The position numbers and the translations under genes are program-made. Below, piece after piece: positions 9,510 through 40,687 of a stretch of DNA of 64,000 bases (positions are counted from its first letter, which is position 1; every line of letters begins with the position of its first letter). Under the pieces are notes generated by a model, which was not told the DNA's origin, did no database searches, and saw only the letters and a program-made list of their open reading frames with translations. This DNA comes from Bradyrhizobium betae. Lineage in GTDB: Bacteria; Pseudomonadota; Alphaproteobacteria; Rhizobiales; Xanthobacteraceae. The stretch covers positions 62,001 through 126,000 of the forward strand of contig NZ_MZXW01000033.1 of assembly GCF_004123905.1 (NCBI RefSeq). Direction: 5' to 3'.

Positions 9510-10942
9510 GTGACGCGCTGACAGAGCTCGAAGCGGGCGTTCGCGCCGATCTCGCCATGATCGCACATCCGCACGCGGCATGGCTCGAACCGAAGACCGG
9601 CCCGGACGGCAAGCCCGCGCTCGATGTGCTCATCATCGGCGCCGGCCAGTCGGGCATCGCCATCGGCTTCGGCCTTCTGCGTTCGCGCGTCAGCAACATC
9701 CTGCTGCTGGACAAGGCCGAGGAGGGAAAGGAGGGCCCGTGGCTCACCTATGCCCGCATGCCGACGCTGCGCAGCCCGAAGGATTACACCGGCCCTGACC
9801 TCGATATTCCCAGCCTGACCTATCAGTCCTGGCACGAAGCCCGCTTCGGCAAGGAGAGCTGGCAGACGCTGAACCTGATCCTGAGGGAGCATTGGGCGGA
9901 GTATCTGCTCTGGCTGCGGCGCACGATCGGCTTGCCGGTTCGCAATGGCTGTGAGCTCCTGGAGATTGCTCCGGCGGCCGATGGCCTGCTCGCCGCGCGC
10001 GTGAAGCGCGCCGACGGCGTCGCGACGCTTTACGCGCGCAAGATCGTGCTGGCGACAGGGCAGGAGGGCACGGGCGACTGGATGATCCCGGAGCCGCTGC
10101 GCGCTCTGCCGGCGAGCTCGATCGCAACCGTTGCCGACGACATCGATTTCGAAAGCCTGCGCGGCAGGCGCGTCGCCGTGATCGGTGCCGGCGCGTCTGC
10201 CTTCGACAATGCGGCAACGGCGCTCGAGGCCGGCGCAGCCGAAGTGCATCTGCTTTGCCGCCGCGCGCAGATCCAGGTGATCCAGCCCTATCGCTGGCTG
10301 ACTTTTCGCGGGTTCCTGCGTCATCTCAGCGATCTCGACGATGCCTGGCGCTGGCGCTTCATGCGCACCATCCTCGAGATGCGCGAAGGGTTTCCGCAGC
10401 CGACATACGACCGCTGTGCGCGCCACGCCAATTTCACATTGCACGAAGGCGCGCCGCTGGAAGCGGCACGACAGACCGCGGGCGGCGTCGAGTTGCAGAC
10501 GCCGCGCGGCATCGTCGCGGCCGATCTCGTCATCTGCGGCACCGGCATCGACATGAATTTTACCGGCCGCGGCGAACTCGCCAAATTCGCCGGCAATATC
10601 GCGACGTGGGCGGATCGCTATCAGCCGCCGGAGAATGAGCGCAACGCGCGGCTCGGCCGCTTCCCTTATCTCGGCGACGATTACGCCTTCACCGAGCGCG
10701 TGCCGGGCGAAACGCCTTGGATCTCCGACATCCATCTCTTCGCCATCGCCTCCACCATGAGCTTTGGTCCGTCGGGATCGTCGATCAACGCGATGACGAC
10801 CGCCGTGCCGAAGCTGGTGAATGGCCTGACGCGCGGGCTGTTTCGCGCGGATATCGCGCGTCATTGGGCCTCGCTCAGCGCCTATGACGTGCCGCAGGCC
10901 GTGGTCACCCGGCCGGCGGGAAAAATGGGGGAATCGCGGTGA
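9506..10942 (+). CDS. NAD(P)/FAD-dependent oxidoreductase, flavin monooxygenase-like
   Basis: A 478-residue protein with two dinucleotide-binding motifs: GAGQSG at 45-50 for FAD and GAGASAFD at 227-234 for NAD(P)H, plus an ATG-type segment (LATGQEG) near 183. The layout matches class B flavoprotein monooxygenases and their relatives. The FxGxxxHxxxW fingerprint of Baeyer-Villiger enzymes is not visible between the two motifs, so the exact reaction is open. It may oxygenate an amine, sulfur or carbonyl intermediate of the hydantoin block. It is the last gene of the block; the first importer operon has its own promoter 38 bp after its stop codon. Confidence 0.83.
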   Translation: MSDALTELEAGVRADLAMIAHPHAAWLEPKTGPDGKPALDVLIIGAGQSGIAIGFGLLRSRVSNILLLDKAEEGKEGPWLTYARMPTLRSPKDYTGPDLDIPSLTYQSWHEARFGKESWQTLNLILREHWAEYLLWLRRTIGLPVRNGCELLEIAPAADGLLAARVKRADGVATLYARKIVLATGQEGTGDWMIPEPLRALPASSIATVADDIDFESLRGRRVAVIGAGASAFDNAATALEAGAAEVHLLCRRAQIQVIQPYRWLTFRGFLRHLSDLDDAWRWRFMRTILEMREGFPQPTYDRCARHANFTLHEGAPLEAARQTAGGVELQTPRGIVAADLVICGTGIDMNFTGRGELAKFAGNIATWADRYQPPENERNARLGRFPYLGDDYAFTERVPGETPWISDIHLFAIASTMSFGPSGSSINAMTTAVPKLVNGLTRGLFRADIARHWASLSAYDVPQAVVTRPAGKMGESR

Positions 10943-16302: not shown

Positions 16303-16318
16303 TGGCATACCATTTGCA
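16303..16318 (+). promoter_or_regulatory. Candidate sigma-54 (-24/-12) promoter of importer B
   Basis: TGGCATA-N4-TTGCA with GG (16304-16305) and GC (16316-16317) at the correct 12-bp offset. Predicted start is about 16329, leaving a leader of about 62 nt before ATG 16391. It lies in the only sizeable gap (145 bp) between importers A and B, which argues that B is a separate transcription unit. Confidence 0.6.
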
Positions 16319-30397: not shown

Positions 30398-31348
30398 CTA
30401 AATTGGCTTCACGGGCATGCGGGATTTCGCCAGTACGCAGTGAATGCCCTTGTTGCCGTCGACCAGCTGCGTGACCCGCAAGTCTGCGGCAATCGAGCAG
30501 AGCGTATAGGCATCCTGCGCGCTGAGGCCGCTTCTCTCCCGGATCAGCGCGATCATGTCGCGTAGCGCGGCCTTGGCCGCATCGTCGAGGTCCTCGTCGA
30601 ATCCCATGGTGATCCAGTCCGACGCCGTCTCCGCGCGCGGCGAGGTGAGGCGGAGATCACGGCGGACGTGGAATTCGAAGGTGCCGGTGAGCGCGGCCTC
30701 GATTGCGGTCAGGCAGACTTCGCCATCGCCCTGGAGCGCGTGGCCGTCGCCGGCCGAGAACAGCGCGCCCGGCACGAACACCGGAAAATACAGCGTGCTG
30801 CCGGCACCGAGCTCCTTGTTGTCCATGTTGCCGCCGAACGCGCGCGGCTCCTTCGAGGACAGCCGACCCCATGACGGCGGCGGCGCGACGCCGAAATTGC
30901 CGAAGAAGGGGGCGAGCGGCAGCTCCTGCCCCCAGGGAAGTGTTGCGACGTTGCGCGCGCGGTCCAGGGGAATGTGGATGCGGCGGAACTCCGGGAAATC
31001 CTCCGGAAGGGTGCCGAGAGTCGGGACCTGGATATTCCAGCCCCAATTGCAGCGCAGCTCGATGTTGAGGATGCGCACTTCGAGGACGTCGCCGGGCTCA
31101 GCGCCCTCGATATGAACAGGTCCGGTGAGGAGATGCGGCCCCGGACCGCGAAAGGCGCTTGCCAGCACCTCTGCATGTCCGGGAACGATATCATAGCCGA
31201 GCGACGGATCAGGCAGATCGTCCGGTTCGCCCGACAGCGTCTCGATGGTCACCCGGTCTCCGGATGCGATCCGGAGCACCGGTTTCGATCGTCCATCCCA
31301 GAGACCCCATTGGACATTTCCGGGCGTCGATTGCAGGACGAAGTCCAT
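30398..31348 (-). CDS. Acetamidase/formamidase family amide hydrolase
   Basis: A 316-residue FmdA/AmdA-family protein that would release ammonia from formamide, acetamide or a similar short amide. Family blocks: TGPVHIEGAEPGDVLEV near 75, FGGNMDNKEL near 170, and GDGHALQGDGEV near 203, which hold the zinc- and substrate-binding residues. It follows the NCS1 transporter gene by 9 bp and is expected to be co-transcribed from the sigma-54/MarR-controlled promoter at 32815. The 59-bp space to the importer C operon (convergent) shows no clear terminator. Confidence 0.9.
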   Translation of the reverse strand: MDFVLQSTPGNVQWGLWDGRSKPVLRIASGDRVTIETLSGEPDDLPDPSLGYDIVPGHAEVLASAFRGPGPHLLTGPVHIEGAEPGDVLEVRILNIELRCNWGWNIQVPTLGTLPEDFPEFRRIHIPLDRARNVATLPWGQELPLAPFFGNFGVAPPPSWGRLSSKEPRAFGGNMDNKELGAGSTLYFPVFVPGALFSAGDGHALQGDGEVCLTAIEAALTGTFEFHVRRDLRLTSPRAETASDWITMGFDEDLDDAAKAALRDMIALIRERSGLSAQDAYTLCSIAADLRVTQLVDGNKGIHCVLAKSRMPVKPI

Positions 31349-31357
31349 GATCTGCGA

Positions 31358-32776
31358 CTACCTGCCTGCGCTACTCGCAACGATCGAGGAGGGCGAGGTC
31401 GCGAACTTGCCGAGCCCAAGATAGACGAGGCCCGCAACGCCGATGCCGAACAGCCAGCTCAGGTCGGCACCGCCGAGCAGGTTGATCGAGATCGGCCCCT
31501 GCAGCGCGCCGACGAGGCCGTCTTCCACGAGCCAGCCGGCAACGAGGCCCGCGAAGAACGCGATCATGCCGGCCCAGTTGATGTCGCCATAGGCGCTGGT
31601 CTCCGGCGAGCGATAGAGCTCGGCGACGTCGATCTTGCCCTTCCGCTTGATGAAGAAGTCGGCCAGCACCACGCCGGCCCACGGGCTCATCCACAGCAGC
31701 AGGCTGATCATCCAGTTGTCGAACGCCTTCGCGAAGGACGGCGCGAAGATGAAGTAGAGCGTGACCAGATAGCCGGCGACGCCGACGATGAGCGTGAGCC
31801 AGAAGCGCGAGAGTTTCAGCCCCGCGCTCAGCGCCGCCAGCGTCGCCGAGTAGACGTTGAGGATGTTGGTGGCGATCGGACCGTGCAGCACCATCAAGAG
31901 CACGAGGATGCTGACGGGACCGCCGAATACCGCGCTGACCATTTTTGCAGGGTCCGTGTCCAGCGTCGTCGAGGCGATGGTCGCGCCGAGAATGCCGAGC
32001 CAGACCGTTGGCACGAACATGCCGACATAGCTGTACCAGAACACGGATTTCGACGACACGCTGCGCGGCACGAAGCGCGAATAGTCGGAGGCCCAGGTCA
32101 CCCAGGAAATGCCCCAGCCGACGCCGATCGCGGTCATCAGCAGCGTCAGCATCGCCAGATGCGCGCCCGGCGGCAGCGACGTCGTGAGGCCCCAGTTGAC
32201 GACGCCGGGACGCGTCCAGGCCAAAATGCTCATCAGCACCATGATGGCGATGGTGGGCGGCACCGTGTATTTCTCGAAGGTGCGGATCGCATAGAAGCCG
32301 TAGATGCCGATGAGGACCTGCACGGCCATCACCAGCGTGATGACGACGATCTCGATGAACCAGGTGTCGGGAACACCGAACTGGCCGAGGATGCCCATCG
32401 AGACCTTGACCGGGAAGTAGGTGTTCACGCCGATCCAGCCCAGCGTCATCACGAACATCAGGATGCTCGGCAGGTAGGCGCCGCGGACGCCGAAGGCGGA
32501 GCGGCTCAATACCATCTGGTTGACGCCGGTCTTGTGTCCCATCACCGTGAAGGTCGCGAAGATCGCGCAGCCCACGATGTTGCCGAGCACGATGACCGCG
32601 ATCGTCTCCATCAGGCCGAGCTTGAGAATAATGCCGAGCGCGCCGAGCGCCCAGTTCACCGGTGCGATGTTGGCGCCGGCCCAGATCCACATCTGCTGCG
32701 GGCCGGTCGAGTCCCGGTCCGCATCGGGAATGGGTTCGATGCTGTGAATATCAGCGCGAAGTTCGGAATCCGTCAT
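31358..32776 (-). CDS. NCS1 family nucleobase/hydantoin:cation symporter
   Basis: A 472-residue membrane protein with about 12 transmembrane helices. QQMWIWAGANIAPVNWALGALG at the first helix region (shown by key residues WAGANIAP) is the NCS1 signature found in cytosine, allantoin, uracil and benzyl-hydantoin permeases. It would import a small cyclic amide or nucleobase with a cation. ATG 32776 is chosen because GGGGGA lies just upstream and the operator/promoter pair lies directly beyond; the longer frame would run through that promoter. First gene of a two-gene operon with the acetamidase. Confidence 0.91.
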   Translation of the reverse strand: MTDSELRADIHSIEPIPDADRDSTGPQQMWIWAGANIAPVNWALGALGIILKLGLMETIAVIVLGNIVGCAIFATFTVMGHKTGVNQMVLSRSAFGVRGAYLPSILMFVMTLGWIGVNTYFPVKVSMGILGQFGVPDTWFIEIVVITLVMAVQVLIGIYGFYAIRTFEKYTVPPTIAIMVLMSILAWTRPGVVNWGLTTSLPPGAHLAMLTLLMTAIGVGWGISWVTWASDYSRFVPRSVSSKSVFWYSYVGMFVPTVWLGILGATIASTTLDTDPAKMVSAVFGGPVSILVLLMVLHGPIATNILNVYSATLAALSAGLKLSRFWLTLIVGVAGYLVTLYFIFAPSFAKAFDNWMISLLLWMSPWAGVVLADFFIKRKGKIDVAELYRSPETSAYGDINWAGMIAFFAGLVAGWLVEDGLVGALQGPISINLLGGADLSWLFGIGVAGLVYLGLGKFATSPSSIVASSAGR

Positions 32777-32791
32777 GACATCCCCCAAATA

Positions 32792-32805
32792 CGAAGCACG
32801 CTTCG
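32792..32805. promoter_or_regulatory. MarR-type operator O1, CGAAGC-AC-GCTTCG
   Basis: Perfect six-base arms around AC, flanked by AT on both sides. It covers about -1 to +13 of the predicted NCS1 transcript, so a bound repressor would block initiation. The same core occurs twice before the divergent amidohydrolase operon and I noticed it nowhere else in the window. Confidence 0.75.
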
Positions 32806-32814
32806 CATCATCGC

Positions 32815-32830
32815 AGCATAAATCGTGCCA
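32815..32830 (-). promoter_or_regulatory. Candidate sigma-54 (-24/-12) promoter of NCS1-acetamidase operon
   Basis: Read on the minus strand: TGGCACG-N4-ATGCT, with a perfect -24 block and correct GG-to-GC spacing; the -12 block has A for T. Predicted start about 32804, 28 nt before the NCS1 ATG and inside operator O1. Confidence 0.6.
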
Positions 32831-33063
32831 TCGGTTGCGGAGACGCCGGAGCAGGGGGTGCACGGACGCTGGATGCAACGTGCCTCGCGCGGGATTGCAC
32901 CTGAAATTTCAAGCGCGCTTCGTCACGCGCCGGCTCGCCGCTACATGTTCGATACAGCGCTCCTCTGCGCCGGCTAGTCGGCGAGAAGCGGAGGACGTTG
33001 CATGGCCGGGCGGCGGTACGATGATAAAATGAGCAGCCCAACTCAAAAGTGCAGCAGCAGCTT

Positions 33064-33573
33064 CTAGTCGAATAGGGCAGCGGAGCTGTCGCGACTGGGA
33101 TTGCCGGCCACGATGCGCTGCATCATTTCGATGAAGAGCGCCTGTTCCTTTTCGCTGAGATCGCCGAGCGTCGCACGATGGGCCCGCCGCGCGGCGTCCT
33201 CGATCTTGACCAGCAGCGCGGCGCCGGCCGGTGTCAGGCGGCACAAGCGCGCGCGGCGATCGTCCTTGTTGACGGCGCGCTCGACCAGGTTTCGTGCGGC
33301 GAGCCGCTTCAACGCACCGGTCGTCGTGGTCCGGTCGAGGGCGATATCGGCCGCCAAAGTGGTCTGATCGGCGGTTTCGCGCACTGCCAGCGCCGAGAGC
33401 AGGCTGTATTGCAGCGGCGTGACCTCGAACGCGCCGCAGGCGTCCTGAAACAGCGCGACGTGAATCTGGTGCAGCCGCCGGATCAGATAGCCGGGACGTT
33501 GCGACAATGGCCAGGGGCGGTGCTTGCCCCCGCCGCGACGCTTCTGTGCTTGCCGCAATGCACGCTCTCCCAA
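33064..33573 (-). CDS. MarR family transcriptional regulator
   Basis: A 169-residue winged-helix repressor: helix-turn-helix around DQTTLAADIALDRTTTTGALKRLA and the wing VERAVNKDDRRARLCRLT (key residues DRTT and KDDRRA). It is the natural candidate to bind the three CGAAGC-NN-GCTTCG palindromes at the flanking operons. The start is TTG 33573 with GGCAGG seven bases upstream; the N-terminal 25 residues are uncertain. It is encoded between the two target operons and transcribed divergently from the amidohydrolase gene, so autoregulation is possible. MarR proteins of this kind usually release DNA on binding a small aromatic or heterocyclic ligand. Confidence 0.88.
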   Translation of the reverse strand: MGERALRQAQKRRGGGKHRPWPLSQRPGYLIRRLHQIHVALFQDACGAFEVTPLQYSLLSALAVRETADQTTLAADIALDRTTTTGALKRLAARNLVERAVNKDDRRARLCRLTPAGAALLVKIEDAARRAHRATLGDLSEKEQALFIEMMQRIVAGNPSRDSSAALFD

Positions 33574-33638
33574 CCCAAGACCTGCCGCGCTTAGCTCGAT
33601 TCGAGTGCGCCCGCCACCGATTGATCACCACCCGATCA

Positions 33639-33654
33639 TGGCATGATGCTTGCT
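33639..33654 (+). promoter_or_regulatory. Candidate sigma-54 (-24/-12) promoter of amidohydrolase/molybdenum hydroxylase operon
   Basis: TGGCATG-N4-TTGCT with GG at 33640-33641 and GC at 33652-33653. Predicted start about 33665, an 88-nt leader before ATG 33753. Operators O2 and O3 cover about +3 to +16 and +29 to +42. Confidence 0.65.
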
Positions 33655-33663
33655 TTTGTCAAA

Positions 33664-33683
33664 ATACGAAGCATACTTCGTAT
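33664..33683. promoter_or_regulatory. MarR-type operator O2, 20-bp palindrome
   Basis: ATACGAAGCATACTTCGTAT; all but one base pair (C/A next to the centre) are symmetric. Its centre is 26 bp from that of O3, which would place the two sites on roughly opposite DNA faces. Confidence 0.75.
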
Positions 33684-33692
33684 ATCGAAATG

Positions 33693-33706
33693 CGAAGCAT
33701 GCTTCG
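33693..33706. promoter_or_regulatory. MarR-type operator O3, CGAAGCATGCTTCG
   Basis: A fully symmetric 14-bp palindrome in the transcribed leader of the amidohydrolase operon. It shares its arms with O1 and O2. Confidence 0.75.
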
Positions 33707-33752
33707 TAATTCCCGAGCGAGGCAATCGCCCGTGTGAGGAGAGGAGACCGTC

Positions 33753-35030
33753 ATGTCCGTCACAGCCAGCTTCGACCTTCTGCTGCGAGGCGGTCGCGTG
33801 ATCTGTCCGGGCTCGGGCGTGGACGGCATCCGGGACATCGCCATCCGCAACGGCAAGATCGCGGCGGTCGCGCCTGATATCCTGCCCACGAGTGCGAAGG
33901 AGGTCGTCGATGTCGGCGGCAAGCTGGTGCTGCCCGGGCTGATCGACACCCACGCGCATGTCTATCAATATGTCTCGGGACGTTTCGGCATGAACCCCGA
34001 CATGGTCGGCGTGCAGTCGGGCGTGACGACGGTGATCGACCAGGGCGGTCCGTCCTGCATGACGCTGCCCGGCTTCCGTCATTTCATCGCCGAGCCCTCG
34101 GCCACGCGCGTCTACGCCTTCCTATCGGCCTATCTCGTCGGCGGTCTCGAGGGACATTTCTATCCGCAGCTCTACAGCCCCGATGGCGTCGACATCGATG
34201 CGACGGTGAAGGCGGCGACGGCCAATCTCGACATCGTGCGCGGCATCAAGGCCCATGCCGAGATCGGCGGCTTCGCGCGCTGGGGCATCCGCGTCATCGA
34301 GATGGCGGCAGAGATCGGCAAGCGCGCCGATCTGCCGGTCTATGTGCATTTCGGCCAGCTCTGGGGCCTCCCCGAGAGCGGTGCCAATGGCGAGGATGCC
34401 GACACCATCCTCACGCGCGTGATTCCGCTGCTGCGCGAAGGCGACGTGCTCGCTCATCCGTTCACGCGCCATCCCGGCGGCTTCGTCAACCGCGAGGGCG
34501 AGGTGCATCCCGTGATCCAGGCCGCGCTCGACCGCGGCCTCAAGGTCGATGTCGGCCACGGCAGCCACTTCTCCTACCGGCTTGCCAAGAAGGCGATCGC
34601 CGCCGGCATCGTTCCGGCCACGCTCGGCGCCGACATCCACGGCTACAACACCCACGTGCCCGCGCCGGCCGGAACGCCGGACCAGCATGAGGACGAGGAG
34701 AACCATCCGTTCGCAGGCCAGGCCAAGTTCAGCCTGGTGCAAGCGATGAGCTCGATGATGGCGCTTGGCCTGTCGCTGGAGCAGGTGGTGCCGATGGTCA
34801 CCTCCAACCCTGCAAAGATGCTCGGCCGCAGCGGGGAGATCGGCGCGCTCAAAGTCGGCATGGACGCCGACGTCTCGGTGCTCTCGGAGAAGAACGGCCG
34901 GTTTGTTCTGACGGACAATGAAAAGAACGAGGTGATCGCCGAGCGCCTGCTGCAGCCGGCGTTCTGCCTGCGCGCCGGCACGCGCTTCGACGCGGTCGCG
35001 CCGATCCTGCCGCAAGCCGTCGCGGCGTAA
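33753..35030 (+). CDS. Dihydroorotase-like amidohydrolase
   Basis: A 425-residue amidohydrolase-superfamily enzyme. Likely metal ligands: H67 and H69 (DTHAHV), lysine K166 in GIKAHAE, H199 (VYVHFGQ), a histidine in AHPFTRH near 235, and D294 (GADIHGYN). The pattern resembles the deacetylase/dihydroorotase-like group that hydrolyses cyclic imides, N-acyl amino acids or carbamates. GGAGAGGAGA precedes the ATG at good spacing. It is the first gene of a long operon with the molybdenum hydroxylase and importer genes, under sigma-54/MarR control, so it may open a ring hydroxylated by the next enzyme (inference). Confidence 0.88.
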   Translation: MSVTASFDLLLRGGRVICPGSGVDGIRDIAIRNGKIAAVAPDILPTSAKEVVDVGGKLVLPGLIDTHAHVYQYVSGRFGMNPDMVGVQSGVTTVIDQGGPSCMTLPGFRHFIAEPSATRVYAFLSAYLVGGLEGHFYPQLYSPDGVDIDATVKAATANLDIVRGIKAHAEIGGFARWGIRVIEMAAEIGKRADLPVYVHFGQLWGLPESGANGEDADTILTRVIPLLREGDVLAHPFTRHPGGFVNREGEVHPVIQAALDRGLKVDVGHGSHFSYRLAKKAIAAGIVPATLGADIHGYNTHVPAPAGTPDQHEDEENHPFAGQAKFSLVQAMSSMMALGLSLEQVVPMVTSNPAKMLGRSGEIGALKVGMDADVSVLSEKNGRFVLTDNEKNEVIAERLLQPAFCLRAGTRFDAVAPILPQAVAA

Positions 35031-35042
35031 GGCCGGGCGGCG

Positions 35043-37433
35043 ATGGAGGGCGCGGAGTTGCGCAACGAGCGAGAGTTTCCTTCTGGAAAGTCCGGGCAGG
35101 GCGTGGGCGCACGGCTGCCGCGGAAGGAGGACGACCGTCTGATGCGCGGCCGCGGCCAGTACGTCGCTGACATCAGGCTCGCCGGTCTTCAGGACGTCGC
35201 CTTCGTGCGCAGCCCGATGGCGCATGCGCGGATTCGCGGCATCCACGTGCCCGAGCGCCATCGCGGCAGCGTCTTCACGGCAGCAGACCTCGTCGGCATC
35301 AAGCCGATCCGTGCGGTGTCGGGATTGCCAGGCTTCAAGATTTCCGAGCAGCCGGTGCTGGCGACCGGAAAAGTGCGCCAGGTCGGCGAGCTCGTCGCGA
35401 TGTGCCTGGCGCCGACGCGGGCCGAGGCGGAGGACATCGCGGCCTCCGTGACGCTGGATCTGGAGGAGCTGCCGGCGATCACCGACATGCTGAAGGCGCG
35501 CGAGCCCGGCTCGGCGCTGGTGCACGAGCATTGGGGCGACAACGTCTTCCTGGAGACCAATTACGAGGTCGATATCTCCGCAGCACTCGACGCGCCGATC
35601 AAGGTGACGCGCGAGATCTCGACCGCGCGGCAGTGCATGTCGCCGCTGGAAGGCCGCGGCGTGGTCGCGACGTTCGACCGCCGGCTCGATCAGCTGACGT
35701 TGCATTCGGCGGCGCAAATGCCGCACATCACGCGCAGCGGCCTTGCCGAATGCCTTGATATGGACGAGGGCCAGATCCGCGTCATCTCTCCCGATGTCGG
35801 CGGTGGTTTTGGCCACAAGGGAATTTTGCTGCCCGAAGAGGTCTGCCTGTCCTGGCTGACCATGCAGCGCGGCCATCCCGTGCGCTGGATTGAAGATCGC
35901 CGCGAGCATCTCATCGCCAGCTCGAATTGCCGCGAGCATCATTACAAGATCACGCTCTATGCTGACCGCGACGGCACGCTGCGCGGCATCGATTGCGAGG
36001 CGACCGTGGATTCCGGCGCCTACTCGTCCTATCCGTTCTCGGCCTGTCTCGAAGCCGCGCAGGTCGCGAGCATCCTGCCCGGCCCCTACAAGATGCCGGC
36101 CTATCGCTGCCGCACCTTCTCGGTCGCCACCAACAAATGCCCGATCCTGCCGTATCGCGGCGTCGCGCGCACCGGCGTCTGCTTTGCGCTGGAGCTGATG
36201 CTCGATCTCGTGGCGACTGAGGCCGGGCTCGAGCCCGGTGAGGTCAGGCTGCGCAATCTGGTGCAGCCGGAGCAGATGCCGTTCGACAACATCACCAGGA
36301 AGCACTTTGACAGCGGCGATTATCCGCAAGCGATGCGCCGCGCGCTGGCCGCTATTAACATCGATGCCATTCGTGCCAGGCAAAGCCTGGGCGAGACCGA
36401 CGGCCGCCGCATCGGCGTCGGAATCTCCATCTATTGCGAGCAGGCCGCGCACGGCACCTCGGTCTATGCCGGCTGGGGCATCCCGATGGTGCCGGGCCAT
36501 GAGCAGGCCTCGGCACGGCTGACGCCGGACGGCGGCCTCGAATTGCGCGTCGGCGTGCATTCGCACGGGCAGGGCATGGAGACCACGCTCGCCCAGGTCG
36601 CGCATGAGATGCTCGGCATCGACGTCGCAAAGATCCGCATTATCCTCGGCGACACCGCGATGACGCCCTATTCGACCGGCACCTGGGGCTCGCGCTCGAT
36701 GGTGATGGCGGGCGGCGCGGTAGCGACGGCCTGCCGCGAGCTCGGCGAACGCGCCCTGCGCATCGGCGCAAAGCTGCTGCAGCACGATCCGGCGGCCGTG
36801 GTGCTGCAGAATGGCGAAGTGTGCGGCGTCAATGGCAGCGTCAGCCTGAAGACGATCGCCCACACCTGGTATCGCCGCCCGCAAGACCTGCCGGCGGACG
36901 TCGATCCCGGCGGGCTGGAAGTCACCCAAGGCTACAAGCCCGTGCGCGACAGCGGAACCTTCAGCTACGCCGCGCATGCGGCCCTCGTCGCGGTCGATCC
37001 TGATCTCGGCGAGGTGGAAATTCTGGACTATGTGATCGTCGAGGACGGCGGCGTGCTGGTCAATCCGCTCGTCGTCGACGGCCAGATCTATGGCGGCCTC
37101 GCCCAAGGCATCGGCACCGCGCTCTACGAGGAGATGCCGTTCGATGCGTCCGGTCAGCCGCTGGCGACGACGCTTGCCGACTATCTGCTGCCGGGCCCGA
37201 CTGAGGTCCCGGCCGCGCGTCTCGATCACATGGAGACGCCGTCGCCTTACACGCAGTTCGGCGTCAAGGGGATCGGCGAGGGTGGTGCCATTGCGCCGCC
37301 GGCCGCGATCGCCAACGCCGTCAACGATGCGCTGCGCCCGCTCGGTGTCGAGCTGATGCAATCGCCGATCACGCCGCATCGCGTCGTCACGGCCGTGCTG
37401 GCCGCGCGCGCCGCCGAAAGGAGCGCGGCATGA
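35043..37433 (+). CDS. Molybdenum hydroxylase large subunit (xanthine dehydrogenase/CoxL family)
   Basis: A 796-residue molybdopterin-cytosine-dinucleotide-type subunit. GARLPRKEDDRLMRGRGQYVADI at the N-terminus (key residues GxxxxRxED.RxxxG), GGGFGHKG near 258, and the C-terminal GIGEGGAIAPPAAIANAV containing the catalytic glutamate are all present. It would hydroxylate an N-heterocycle or aldehyde with water as the oxygen source. The CO-dehydrogenase-specific cysteine loop is not evident, so a heterocycle or aldehyde substrate is favoured. It starts 12 bp after the amidohydrolase and overlaps the FAD-subunit gene by ATGA. Confidence 0.93.
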   Translation: MEGAELRNEREFPSGKSGQGVGARLPRKEDDRLMRGRGQYVADIRLAGLQDVAFVRSPMAHARIRGIHVPERHRGSVFTAADLVGIKPIRAVSGLPGFKISEQPVLATGKVRQVGELVAMCLAPTRAEAEDIAASVTLDLEELPAITDMLKAREPGSALVHEHWGDNVFLETNYEVDISAALDAPIKVTREISTARQCMSPLEGRGVVATFDRRLDQLTLHSAAQMPHITRSGLAECLDMDEGQIRVISPDVGGGFGHKGILLPEEVCLSWLTMQRGHPVRWIEDRREHLIASSNCREHHYKITLYADRDGTLRGIDCEATVDSGAYSSYPFSACLEAAQVASILPGPYKMPAYRCRTFSVATNKCPILPYRGVARTGVCFALELMLDLVATEAGLEPGEVRLRNLVQPEQMPFDNITRKHFDSGDYPQAMRRALAAINIDAIRARQSLGETDGRRIGVGISIYCEQAAHGTSVYAGWGIPMVPGHEQASARLTPDGGLELRVGVHSHGQGMETTLAQVAHEMLGIDVAKIRIILGDTAMTPYSTGTWGSRSMVMAGGAVATACRELGERALRIGAKLLQHDPAAVVLQNGEVCGVNGSVSLKTIAHTWYRRPQDLPADVDPGGLEVTQGYKPVRDSGTFSYAAHAALVAVDPDLGEVEILDYVIVEDGGVLVNPLVVDGQIYGGLAQGIGTALYEEMPFDASGQPLATTLADYLLPGPTEVPAARLDHMETPSPYTQFGVKGIGEGGAIAPPAAIANAVNDALRPLGVELMQSPITPHRVVTAVLAARAAERSAA

Positions 37434-38266
37434 AGCCGGCGCCCTTCAGCTACGAGCGCCCGCGCGATCTCAGCGCGGCCCTGTCGATGCTGGCCGCAAG
37501 CAGCGGCTCCGCAAAAATCATCGCCGGCGGCCAGTCGCTCGGTCCGATGCTCAATCTGCGGCTGGTGCAGCCGGAGCTGATCGTCGACATCTCCGGCCTG
37601 TCCGAGCTCAAGCGGGCCGAGGTTTCCGGCAATGAGCTCGTGCTTGGGGCCCTGGTCACCCATGCCGATATCGAGGACGGACGCACGGCCGACGTGACGC
37701 GCGGCGCCATGCGCGCCGTCGCGGCCAATATCGCCTATCGCGCGGTGCGCAACCGCGGCACCATCGGCGGCTCGCTCAGCCACGCCGATCCCGCCGCGGA
37801 CTGGGTGTCCGCGTTCGCGGCATTGGGCGCGCGGCTGACGCTGCGCAACCTCGCCGGCGCGCGCATGATGGCGATCGAGGCTTTCGTCGTCGGCGCCCTT
37901 GAATCTGCGCTGCACGCCGGCGAGATCGTCGAGTCCGTTCATGTTCCGGCACGAACGGTTTCGTCTCATTGGGGCTATGCCAAGAGCTGCCGCAAGACCG
38001 GCGAGTTCGCCCATGCCATCGGCGCGGTGCTGGTCGATCCGGCCGCCGCTTCGGCGCGAATCGTAATCGGCGCGATCGACACGACGCCGATCGTCGTGAC
38101 CGAGGCCGCGGAGCTGTTCGGCGGGCGTATTGCGGCCGACTACAAGCAGCGTTTCGACACCCGCGTCGCGGACGCGCTTCTCGCGAAAGCCGGCATCGAC
38201 GATGCCGCGCAGCGCCATATCCATGTCAGCGTGCTCAAGCGCGCCGTCCTGGAGGCCGCGGCATGA
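37430..38266 (+). CDS. Molybdenum hydroxylase FAD subunit (CoxM type)
   Basis: A 278-residue medium subunit. The two FAD-binding motifs are IIAGGQSLGPML near 24-35 and RGTIGGSLSHADPAADW near 106-122. The N-terminal FSYERPRDLSAAL is usual for CoxM. It carries electrons from the Fe-S subunit to the acceptor. Overlaps both neighbours by ATGA, so the three subunits are co-translated. Confidence 0.94.
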   Translation: MKPAPFSYERPRDLSAALSMLAASSGSAKIIAGGQSLGPMLNLRLVQPELIVDISGLSELKRAEVSGNELVLGALVTHADIEDGRTADVTRGAMRAVAANIAYRAVRNRGTIGGSLSHADPAADWVSAFAALGARLTLRNLAGARMMAIEAFVVGALESALHAGEIVESVHVPARTVSSHWGYAKSCRKTGEFAHAIGAVLVDPAAASARIVIGAIDTTPIVVTEAAELFGGRIAADYKQRFDTRVADALLAKAGIDDAAQRHIHVSVLKRAVLEAAA

Positions 38267-39456
38267 CCACGATCGCGCTTCACGTCAATCGCCGCGCGGT
38301 GGAGCTGTCGGCCGAGCCGCGCACCAGCCTGGCCGATTTCGTCCGCGACAGGCTCGATCTGACCGGCACGCATCTCGGCTGCGAGCACGGCGTTTGCGGC
38401 GCCTGCACCGTGCTGCTCGACGGCGTGCCGGCGCGGTCCTGCATCACTTATGCGGTCGCCTGCGAGGGCGCGGATGTCACCACGATCGAAGGTCTCGACG
38501 AGGACGAGGTCACGACCGAGCTGCGCGCGGCCTTCACCCGGGAGCATGCCCTGCAATGCGGCTATTGCACGCCCGGCATGCTGGTCGCGGCACGGGACCT
38601 GGTGCTGCGTCTGCCCGATGCCGACGAGCGGCGCATTCGCGTCGGCCTCAGCGGCAATCTCTGCCGCTGCACCGGTTATGTCGGGATCGTGCGGGCGGTG
38701 CAGTCGGTTATCGAAGCCCGGCGCGCGCGCAACATCGCGCCGCAGGCCGATGCGGGCCGGACCCATCTCGGCCCCGCCGGATCGGGGCGGGCCACTTCCA
38801 CCAGAGACGAGCCGAGGCGCGCGACGCAGGCGTCGGCGCCGGCATCAGAGAGTGCCGCACCGGGGCGAATCCCGGACTTCACGCCGGCGACCGTGCTCGA
38901 CCAGCGCTTCACGCTGCCGCACCCGCCGGCAAAAGTATTCGCGATGTTCGATGATATCGCAGCCATCGCGGCCTGCTTGCCCGGCGTATCGCTGACGGCA
39001 CCGCCGAAGCCCGAGCGCGTCGTAGGTTTGATCCGGGTCAGGCTCGGACCGATCGCGGCGGCCTTCGAGGGGGCCGCGCGCGTCGAACGCGATCCGGCAA
39101 CGCTCTCCGGCCGCATCGTCGGTATCGGCACCGACCAGCGCAGCCATTCGGCGACGCAAGGCGAGATTCGTTACCGCCTCGTGCCGCTCGAAGGCGGCGC
39201 GGCGACCGCCGTCGAATTGTCGATCGGCTACACGCTCACGGGAATGCTGGCGCAATTCGGCCGGCCCGGCCTGGTGCGGGATCTCGCCAGACGCCTGATT
39301 GCGGAGTTCGCGGGAAATCTCGACCGACACATGTCCGGCGCGTCGCCGGAGCAGGCGGCCGAGCTCAGCTTCTGGTCGATTGCATCGGACGTTCTGCGCG
39401 CCCGGCTCGCGCGCATGTTTGGCCGCGTCTTCACCGGAAAAGGTGGCGCGGAATGA
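38263..39456 (+). CDS. Molybdenum hydroxylase Fe-S subunit fused to a CoxG/SRPBCC domain
   Basis: A 397-residue fusion. Residues 1-155 form a normal small subunit: plant-type [2Fe-2S] cysteines C40, C45, C48, C60 and the second cluster C99, C102, C134, C136. A low-complexity linker rich in Ala, Pro, Arg and Ser spans about 155-205. From about 208 an SRPBCC/CoxG-like domain follows (VFAMFDDIAAIAACLPGV, IRVRLGPIAAAFEG), ending with a hydrophobic/basic tail. CoxG proteins are normally separate and help assemble or anchor molybdenum hydroxylases at the membrane; fusion would make that permanent. No frameshift separates the parts. Confidence 0.9.
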   Translation: MTTIALHVNRRAVELSAEPRTSLADFVRDRLDLTGTHLGCEHGVCGACTVLLDGVPARSCITYAVACEGADVTTIEGLDEDEVTTELRAAFTREHALQCGYCTPGMLVAARDLVLRLPDADERRIRVGLSGNLCRCTGYVGIVRAVQSVIEARRARNIAPQADAGRTHLGPAGSGRATSTRDEPRRATQASAPASESAAPGRIPDFTPATVLDQRFTLPHPPAKVFAMFDDIAAIAACLPGVSLTAPPKPERVVGLIRVRLGPIAAAFEGAARVERDPATLSGRIVGIGTDQRSHSATQGEIRYRLVPLEGGAATAVELSIGYTLTGMLAQFGRPGLVRDLARRLIAEFAGNLDRHMSGASPEQAAELSFWSIASDVLRARLARMFGRVFTGKGGAE

Positions 39457-39532: not shown

Positions 39533-40687
39533 ATGACACGAGCACTCGGACTGGTTGGGACAATCGCGCTGGCGACGGCCTTGTTCGGCGGCACGGCAGG
39601 GGCGCAGACCATCAAGATCGGCGTCAATGAGCCGCTCACCGGTGCGTTCGCTGCTTCAGGCACCTACGTTGTCAACGGCGCCAAGATCGCCGCCGACGAG
39701 ATCAACGCCAAGGGTGGCGTGCTCGGCAAGAAGATCGAGCTCGTCATCGAGGACAACAAGAGCAACCCGACGGAAGCTGCCGCCGTCGCCGAAAAGCTCA
39801 TCACCAGCGACAAGGTGCCGGTGCTGATGGGCGCCTGGGGCTCGAGCCTGACGCTCGCGGTGATGCCCAAGCTGATGGAATACGAGACGCCGATGGTGGT
39901 GGAGACCTCGTCCTCCGGCAAGATCACGACCACCGGCAATCCCTTCATCTTCCGCATCTCGCCGCCCTCGGCGGTCGAGGCAGCCGCGTTCAAGGGCATC
40001 GTCGACAAGCTCGCGCTCAAGAAGGTCGACTTCCTCGTCATCAACAACGACTGGGGCCGCGGCACCGCCGAGGATTTCAGCAAGATGATGAAGGACAAGG
40101 GCATCACCATCGGTCTCGTTGAGACCATGGACCAGGGCGCGCAGGACATGAGCGCGCAGCTCTCCAAGATCAAGAGCTCGGATTCCGAGACTGTCATCGT
40201 CACCACCGCTGTCGACCAGCTCACGCTGATCTTCAAGCAGGCGGCAGCGCTCGGTTTGAAGAAGCGCATCATCACCACCGGCGGTTCGCAGAACCCGGAC
40301 CAGATCATCGCCCAGGCGGGAGCGGCCGCCAACGGCACCATGCATCTGACCACCTTCCTGCCCTGGTTCCCGGACAAGACGCCGAACCCGGAAGCAACCA
40401 ACTATTTCATCACCGAATGGAAGAAGCGCGGCTTCGAGTTCGCCGGCTGCACCGAGAGTTTCCGCGGCTATGACGGCATCCGCACCGCGGCAGCTGCGAT
40501 CGAGAAGGCGGGCAAGGCCGAGCCGGCTGCGATCAAGGCGGCGCTCTGGGACATCAACATCAAGGGGCTGAACGGCGACATCGTGTTCCGCAAGTCCGGC
40601 CCCGAGGGCAAGGAAAGCGGCCAGAGCCAGCCGAACGTCTATCTCATCGAGATCAACGACGGCAAGGTCGAGATGAAGACGCTCTGA
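39533..40687 (+). CDS. Branched-chain-type ABC importer: periplasmic binding protein
   Basis: A 384-residue LivK-type protein with a Sec signal peptide (cleavage near GGTAGAQT). IKIGVNEPLTGAFAASG is the family N-terminus; the paired Rossmann-like lobes are intact. The HAAT family carries branched-chain amino acids but many soil-bacterial members bind aromatic acids, amides or urea. Given its place in the molybdenum-hydroxylase operon, a heterocyclic or amide ligand is more likely (inference). A good GGAGAG ribosome site precedes the ATG. A 76-bp gap separates it from the Fe-S subunit with no promoter that I recognise. Confidence 0.92.
   Translation: MTRALGLVGTIALATALFGGTAGAQTIKIGVNEPLTGAFAASGTYVVNGAKIAADEINAKGGVLGKKIELVIEDNKSNPTEAAAVAEKLITSDKVPVLMGAWGSSLTLAVMPKLMEYETPMVVETSSSGKITTTGNPFIFRISPPSAVEAAAFKGIVDKLALKKVDFLVINNDWGRGTAEDFSKMMKDKGITIGLVETMDQGAQDMSAQLSKIKSSDSETVIVTTAVDQLTLIFKQAAALGLKKRIITTGGSQNPDQIIAQAGAAANGTMHLTTFLPWFPDKTPNPEATNYFITEWKKRGFEFAGCTESFRGYDGIRTAAAAIEKAGKAEPAAIKAALWDINIKGLNGDIVFRKSGPEGKESGQSQPNVYLIEINDGKVEMKTL

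Follow-up and report, generated by a model that had tools for sequence, protein, structure and literature searches.

Predicted MarR-family operators at the start points of two sigma-54-type promoters in Bradyrhizobium betae

Sigma-54 promoters are usually described as being under activation alone, and a locus of Bradyrhizobium betae raises the question of whether a local repressor might act on two of them as well. The window analysed here is a stretch of 64,000 nucleotides on contig NZ_MZXW01000033.1 (window position being contig position minus 62000), which is part of a genome of 8.62 Mb, labelled G000. It encodes a MarR-family regulator (33064..33573, minus strand; Pfam MarR PF01047, E 1.6e-10), for which a TTG start was used, the start codon being uncertain. 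Downstream of marR, and read in the same direction, lie the genes for an NCS1-family nucleobase/allantoin-type permease (31358..32776, minus strand; Transp_cyt_pur, E 4.9e-52) and an acetamidase/formamidase-family protein (30398..31348, minus strand; FmdA_AmdA, E 8.5e-35), the latter falling far short of the NCBIfam formamidase model with 70.8 bits at a cut-off of 500.

Facing marR on the plus strand is an enzyme operon that begins with an amidohydrolase (33753..35030; NCBIfam NF006689, 446.1 bits, cut-off 371) and continues with the large subunit of a molybdenum hydroxylase (35043..37433), whose nearest solved structure is quinoline 2-oxidoreductase (E 2.7e-144). Family searches identify the next genes as the FAD-binding medium subunit of the hydroxylase (37430..38266), its 2Fe-2S small subunit fused to a CoxG-like domain (38263..39456) and a branched-chain-amino-acid-type ABC substrate-binding protein (39533..40687), all on the plus strand. 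The gene for the ABC binding protein is next in order in 9 of the 11 relatives mapped, and is not so placed in loci L056 and L057. Going by family resemblance only, the enzymes appear suited to hydroxylating an N-heterocycle, opening the ring and hydrolysing an amide, and both operons look as though they were built for the use of a nitrogen-containing compound. The initial annotation of this DNA had called the arrangement divergent, which holds for the enzyme operon relative to marR, whereas the permease operon is co-directional with marR.

A -24/-12 element had been proposed for both operons, and both elements are found where they had been placed. The enzyme operon has TGGCATGATGCTTGCT at 33639..33654 on the plus strand, with one mismatch to TGGCACGNNNNTTGCW, and the permease operon has TGGCACGATTTATGCT at 32815..32830 on the minus strand, again with one mismatch, T to A at -15. 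In each of the two, GG and GC lie 10 bp apart within YTGGCACG-N4-TTGCW, the spacing by which we define a sigma-54 element. A lone match of this kind is unremarkable and frequent by chance, the pattern giving 113 matches genome-wide with up to one mismatch versus 84 for the reversed control. A single rpoN gene is present in the genome.

The palindromes next to the two elements were located relative to the predicted +1, taken as the position 12 bases past the GC of the -24/-12 element. On the enzyme side, the predicted operator O1 (33665..33682, TACGAAGCATACTTCGTA) spans predicted +1 to +18, and O2 (33691..33708, TGCGAAGCATGCTTCGTA) stands 26 bp after O1. The permease promoter has the predicted operator O3 (32790..32807, TACGAAGCACGCTTCGCA), spanning predicted -3 to +15. 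The initial annotation had described a 14-bp palindrome starting at +1 of both promoters; the palindrome is indeed present at both, but its true length is 18-22 bp, the extended unit being about AATRCGAAGYRYRCTTCGYATT, and the first plus-strand copy reads CGAAGCATACTTCG, one mismatch from the CGAAGCNNGCTTCG that had been given. A start at +1 is right for the enzyme side, with the 14-bp core at +3, while on the permease side the palindrome starts at -3 and the core at -1. The additional copy placed at +29 to +42 on the plus side was correct.

The short 14-bp core by itself hardly exceeds chance in the window, where 16 copies with up to two mismatches are found, compared with 9.84 +/- 3.10 expected, and 5 of 100 shuffles reach 16; one exact core, at 9835, is none of the extended sites. 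A genome-wide scan, which the initial annotation had recommended, finds the exact extended form at three places in 8.6 Mb, all of them at this locus, and three further places carry it with one mismatch (L034-L036). Because the extended palindrome is rare, its spacing fixed and both are conserved in relatives, the combination of promoter and palindrome is a real observation, well past chance.

Conservation was assessed in the best 80 of 341 relatives (named genomes), a sample from Bradyrhizobium, Tardiphaga, Rhodopseudomonas and some metagenome assemblies, among which the nearest named orthologues of the locus belong to Bradyrhizobium. Between marR and the enzyme operon, all 80 loci have the palindrome, each in at least one exact copy, and the amidohydrolase is visible on that side in 79, L137 being cut off. 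Measured from where the best -24/-12 match begins, the first copy of the palindrome starts after 24-27 bases in 78 loci; in 2 it starts after 20. The GG of the enzyme-side element is kept in 78 loci and the GC in 75; across the sample the N4 spacer is variable, a trait of sigma-54 sites, and TGGCA and TTG are nearly constant. An intact element (at least 10 of 12 positions, with GG and GC) at an offset of 22-28 is found in 75 of the 80 loci, compared with 0 of 35,066 other positions in the same sequences, counts that are not independent trials because the sequences are related by descent. An alignment of 18 of the 80 loci shows flanks that diverge widely and promoter elements that persist. In L011/L056, the enzyme-side palindrome has one mismatch and stands at a greater distance, about 34 bases from the start of its element, which we count against the explanation favoured below.

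Operator copies number two to four on the enzyme side in 17 of the 80 loci, at a spacing of 24-27 bp with one of 35. They look like short tandem duplications, and the extra copies may strengthen repression. Three copies stand at the enzyme-side promoter of L079, and four stand in tandem in L080 (Bradyrhizobium sp. WSM1743), in steps of 35, 27 and 27 bp.

The permease lies directly downstream of marR in 46 of the 80 loci, and an operator is found there in 45 of them. All 45 of these operators have an intact sigma-54 element 22-28 bases ahead, the distance being 23 in 37 loci. The exception is L125, where the permease has a sigma-54-like element and no operator, and which counts against the favoured explanation. 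In the other 34 loci, marR has no permease beside it; 28 of these also lack an operator beyond marR, and the remaining six, L132-L137, do have a palindrome there and are likewise counted against the favoured explanation. In total, 55 sigma-54-like matches occur in the 49,200 positions beyond marR, 45 of them at operators; of the other ten, seven are spread singly over L125 and L132-L137, and three, in L098, L102 and L112, are unrelated. In L056 and L057 (2 of 60 genomes), the permease sits behind the hydroxylase genes, and the gene there, too, has a sigma-54-like element (TGGTACGGTTCATGCA, TGGTACGATTCTTGCT) with no operator visible beside it.

The region beyond the end of marR also contains guanidine-I riboswitches (RF00442), with matches above the gathering score at L056:9765-9871, L057:9906-10012, L133:4740-4846 and L134:4754-4860. 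Each follows the start of a sigma-54-like element at a distance of about 25-35 bases, the element in L056 being TGGCACGTCATTTGCT, and the genes after them resemble, by eye, nitroreductase and polar amino-acid ABC genes. An exact palindrome stands upstream of the riboswitch in L056. The search at E 0.001 gave no guanidine-I match in L132 and L135-L137, though a sigma-54-like element is present in these loci.

That both operons are under sigma-54 control, as first proposed, finds support in the near-invariant GG and GC, in the variable spacer and in a published rpoN-mutant transcriptome of an orthologous strain, Bradyrhizobium sp. DOA9. Wongdee et al. 2026 compared the wild type with rpoN mutants in microaerobic nitrogen-free culture, and their Table 1 of RpoNc targets, cross-referenced with the differentially expressed genes, lists a permease (42166) with TGGCACGATTTATGC at -39 and a "D-aminoacylase" (42168) with TGGCACGAAGCTTGC at -102 (PMC13207237). 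In the sections covered, 42166 is described as "consistently downregulated" in the rpoN mutants and 42168 as "also affected" (PMC13207237). Both distances are reproduced on the DOA9 locus (L068) when the count runs from the element's final base up to the ATG, which identifies the Table 1 entries as these same two promoters, and the permease element of the window is identical to that listed for DOA9. We regard both elements as almost certainly sigma-54 promoters. Table 1 also includes braC (42172; PMC13207237), which we infer from the numbering to be the orthologue of the ABC binding protein in the window.

The word MarR is absent from the main text of the DOA9 paper, the palindromes are not described in the sections covered, and the gel-shift probes, as named in these sections, exclude the two promoters (PMC13207237). 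The rpoN response was seen in nitrogen-free medium, and the sections covered mention no inducer, so that repression may be leaky. The same paper gives TGGCATACCATTTGC before dppE as an RpoN target (PMC13207237), to be compared with TGGCATACCATTTGCA at 16303-16318 of the window, which is located ahead of an open reading frame.

Whether the palindromes belong to the MarR protein can be judged from their distribution. Among 60 related genomes, a close MarR orthologue is found in 12, with a best match of at least 203 bits against at most 122 bits in the others, and the exact palindrome is found in the same 12 genomes and in 0 of the 48 others. In one of these genomes, G024, the exact copy lies beyond marR and the enzyme-side copy has one mismatch. 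A scan of 397 genomes from the order for the stricter pattern that combines sigma-54 element and palindrome finds it in 6, belonging to 2 of 141 genera. The 60-genome and 80-locus sets overlap (G014/L073, G016/L085, G023/L113, G027/L106 and G032/L111) and are therefore not independent. The initial prediction that the palindrome is a MarR operator is backed both by this co-occurrence with the gene and by the way the palindrome follows the permease gene, and the palindromes would very probably be the operators of this MarR.

Such an operator could serve mainly for the autoregulation of marR, with the sigma-54 promoters being set by their activator alone and the overlap being incidental. MarR genes are commonly self-regulating, and the operator persists where the enzyme-side sigma-54 element is degraded. 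In L132 and L134-L137, this element is without GG or GC and the palindrome is retained, which means that the palindrome must serve another purpose there, perhaps that of marR itself, as if promoter control had changed in that group; we count these loci, too, against the favoured explanation. All five belong to L132-L137, the six lowest-ranked loci, whose region beyond marR is different as well. Autoregulation accounts poorly, however, for the permease promoter downstream of marR, which has an operator of its own at nearly the same place relative to +1, for an operator that accompanies the permease in all but one of 46 loci, and for a nearly constant offset between operator and -24/-12 element, and we judge it unlikely as the main role of the palindrome.

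A further alternative dispenses with a DNA operator and takes the palindrome as a hairpin at the 5' end of the RNA that governs mRNA stability. The enzyme-side palindrome begins at the predicted +1, as such a hairpin might, and where the two halves of a copy fail to match at position 2/17, the pair is mostly G-T (75) and seldom A-C (7), the bias that G-U pairing would favour, but 75 versus 7 is not a count of events, the copies sharing descent. On the permease side, moreover, the palindrome starts at -3, so that the transcript would lack the palindrome's first three bases, and in L132-L137 a copy precedes the next sigma-54 element by 130-150 bases and falls outside that transcript. Together with the co-occurrence with the MarR gene, this makes a hairpin very improbable. 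It is scarcely credible that the -24/-12 elements are unused and that a sigma-70-type promoter overlapping the palindrome drives transcription, since the TTGTCA hexamer immediately ahead of O1 in the window is kept in part of the relatives only while TGGCAY-N5-TTGCT is kept far more widely, and rpoN dependence is reported in the covered sections on DOA9 (PMC13207237), even if single -24/-12 matches are common by chance.

The explanation that we favour joins a local repressor to a sigma-54 activator. The two operons would let the cell take up and degrade an N-heterocyclic or amide compound, each being transcribed from its sigma-54 promoter, and a dimer of the local MarR would occupy the palindromes from the start site (-3 or +1) and block initiation. 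An enhancer-binding activator, probably nitrogen-responsive and with NtrC as the first guess of six, would supply the ATP-driven opening, the substrate or a pathway intermediate would release MarR, and expression would need both keys, the activator and the release by the ligand. We are rather confident that MarR would repress both operons, and the explanation as worded, with its "probably" before the nitrogen-responsive activator, appears likely. The full two-key switch of a nitrogen-responsive activator and substrate release is moderately probable, nitrogen status being a plausible activating signal.

A dimer at about -3 to +18 would sit where the open complex must form, and the position of the predicted site in this region would place repression at initiation, the block being either exclusion of the polymerase or a stop to opening. 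More specifically, MarR might lie at about -3 to +18 over a docked sigma-54 polymerase and act after recruitment, at melting or escape, a suggestion that we consider doubtful and put forward tentatively. If true, the promoter would be poised, needing ATP-driven activation plus ligand release, and sigma-54 promoters capped by a repressor would be a recurrent design in these bacteria, a further, GntR-like example being L152 (described below). With a conserved predicted MarR site at the start point of two such promoters, the locus provides a small, naturally occurring system in which to ask if a sigma-54 polymerase that has already docked can be held by a repressor.

A repressor on a sigma-54 promoter has precedent in the HutC/hutU system of Pseudomonas, which, in the parts of the literature covered, is the closest known arrangement. 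In Pseudomonas aeruginosa, the region protected by HutC overlaps hutU's sigma-54 site (PMC12977541), and NtrC and CbrB activate hut in pseudomonads (PMC8871633). From the sections covered, the likeness lies in a local, substrate-responsive repressor over the sigma-54 site of a nitrogen-compound operon (PMC12977541), with the regulator gene near the operon as here. HutC itself is a GntR/HutC-family protein that recognises TGTA-N2-TACA sites and gives a 51-bp footprint (PMC12977541), whereas the present locus has a predicted MarR with an 18-22 bp site from the start point, repeated in some loci and present at two promoters. The predicted repressor site overlaps the sigma-54 promoter region, from -3 to +18, as judged by sequence only.

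The regulator described here scores 41.1 bits against PF01047 (Pfam cut-off 24.6), and MarR and MarR_2 are the only families above the Pfam cut-off, the GntR-type HutC domain not being among them. The present case would act like HutC/hutU, yet its regulator is no member of the HutC protein family. In the titles and abstract openings found by our literature search, no MarR repressor at a sigma-54 promoter is reported. The arrangement would offer a ready two-input switch (activator AND substrate), and it supplies two rpoN-dependent operons, already known from a transcriptome, with a predicted substrate-specific regulator to which the covered sections of the DOA9 paper do not link them.

Candidates for the activator come from nine matches to enhancer-binding proteins in the genome, six of them strong, which we take to be NtrC, an NtrX-like neighbour (from its position only), an FlbD-like protein, a response regulator, an AcoR-like protein and a PAS protein. 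Scans for the GCAC/GTGC dyad of NtrC upstream of both promoters yielded only weak matches, none of them convincing, and the region upstream of a glutamine-synthetase gene, read as glnII (L153), gave no clear common motif in a dyad scan and a comparison by eye. For the enzyme operon, upstream comparisons and dyad scans found no activator site. The diversity of marR at fourfold sites, calculated for 53 of the 80 loci, is low at codons ~28-79 (window means of 0.25-0.29, compared with mostly 0.38-0.52 elsewhere) and low again at both gene ends. Low diversity could mean that marR hides the activator site of the enzyme operon, codon bias being an alternative cause.

On the permease side, an alignment of 24 loci, drawn from the 45 that have both permease and operator, reveals a conserved block, CTTGAAATTTCAGGTGCAATC (32893..32913, minus strand), upstream of the sigma-54 element, which is a possible activator site of the permease promoter. 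The block CTTGAAANNNCANNNNCAATC has a single exact match in the genome and hence seems to be no general motif. A second conserved block, GCTGC-CAATTTATCATCG (33019..33048, minus strand), lies just past the marR stop. A stretch related to it, judged by eye, is also seen in L051, a locus without the permease.

Among solved structures, the regulator comes closest to PcaV (4fht) and to 6pcp/6pco, a MarR regulator. The search table labels the latter chains as MarR family, and we take them to be BpsR. The most similar known MarR regulators are thus BpsR, NicR and PcaV, none of which is known to us to have a link to sigma-54. In the covered part of the BpsR report, Arg26 and His32 contact 6-hydroxynicotinate (PMC6837509). 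If the published residue numbers equal the chain positions, as was assumed for the alignment, these residues correspond to R32 and H38 here, which are invariant in the 12 MarR orthologues, while Tyr15 and His23 of BpsR differ, being W21 and Y/F29. The match of R32 and H38 to the ligand contacts of BpsR, and their invariance, suggest an aromatic or heteroaromatic acid as the ligand of this MarR.

Elsewhere in the same genome, another junction of a sigma-54-like element with a palindrome was noticed in L152 (G000:C1:762000-764400). The element, at C1:763132-763147 on the minus strand, is joined directly to the palindrome, with AAATGTGCACATTT overlapping TGGCATGACGCTTGCT by one base, ahead of a gene that is ABC binding-protein-like by eye. 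A second TGTGCACA copy lies near the start of a divergent gene, GntR-like by eye. The L152 junction is found without mismatch in one more of the 60 genomes, G011.
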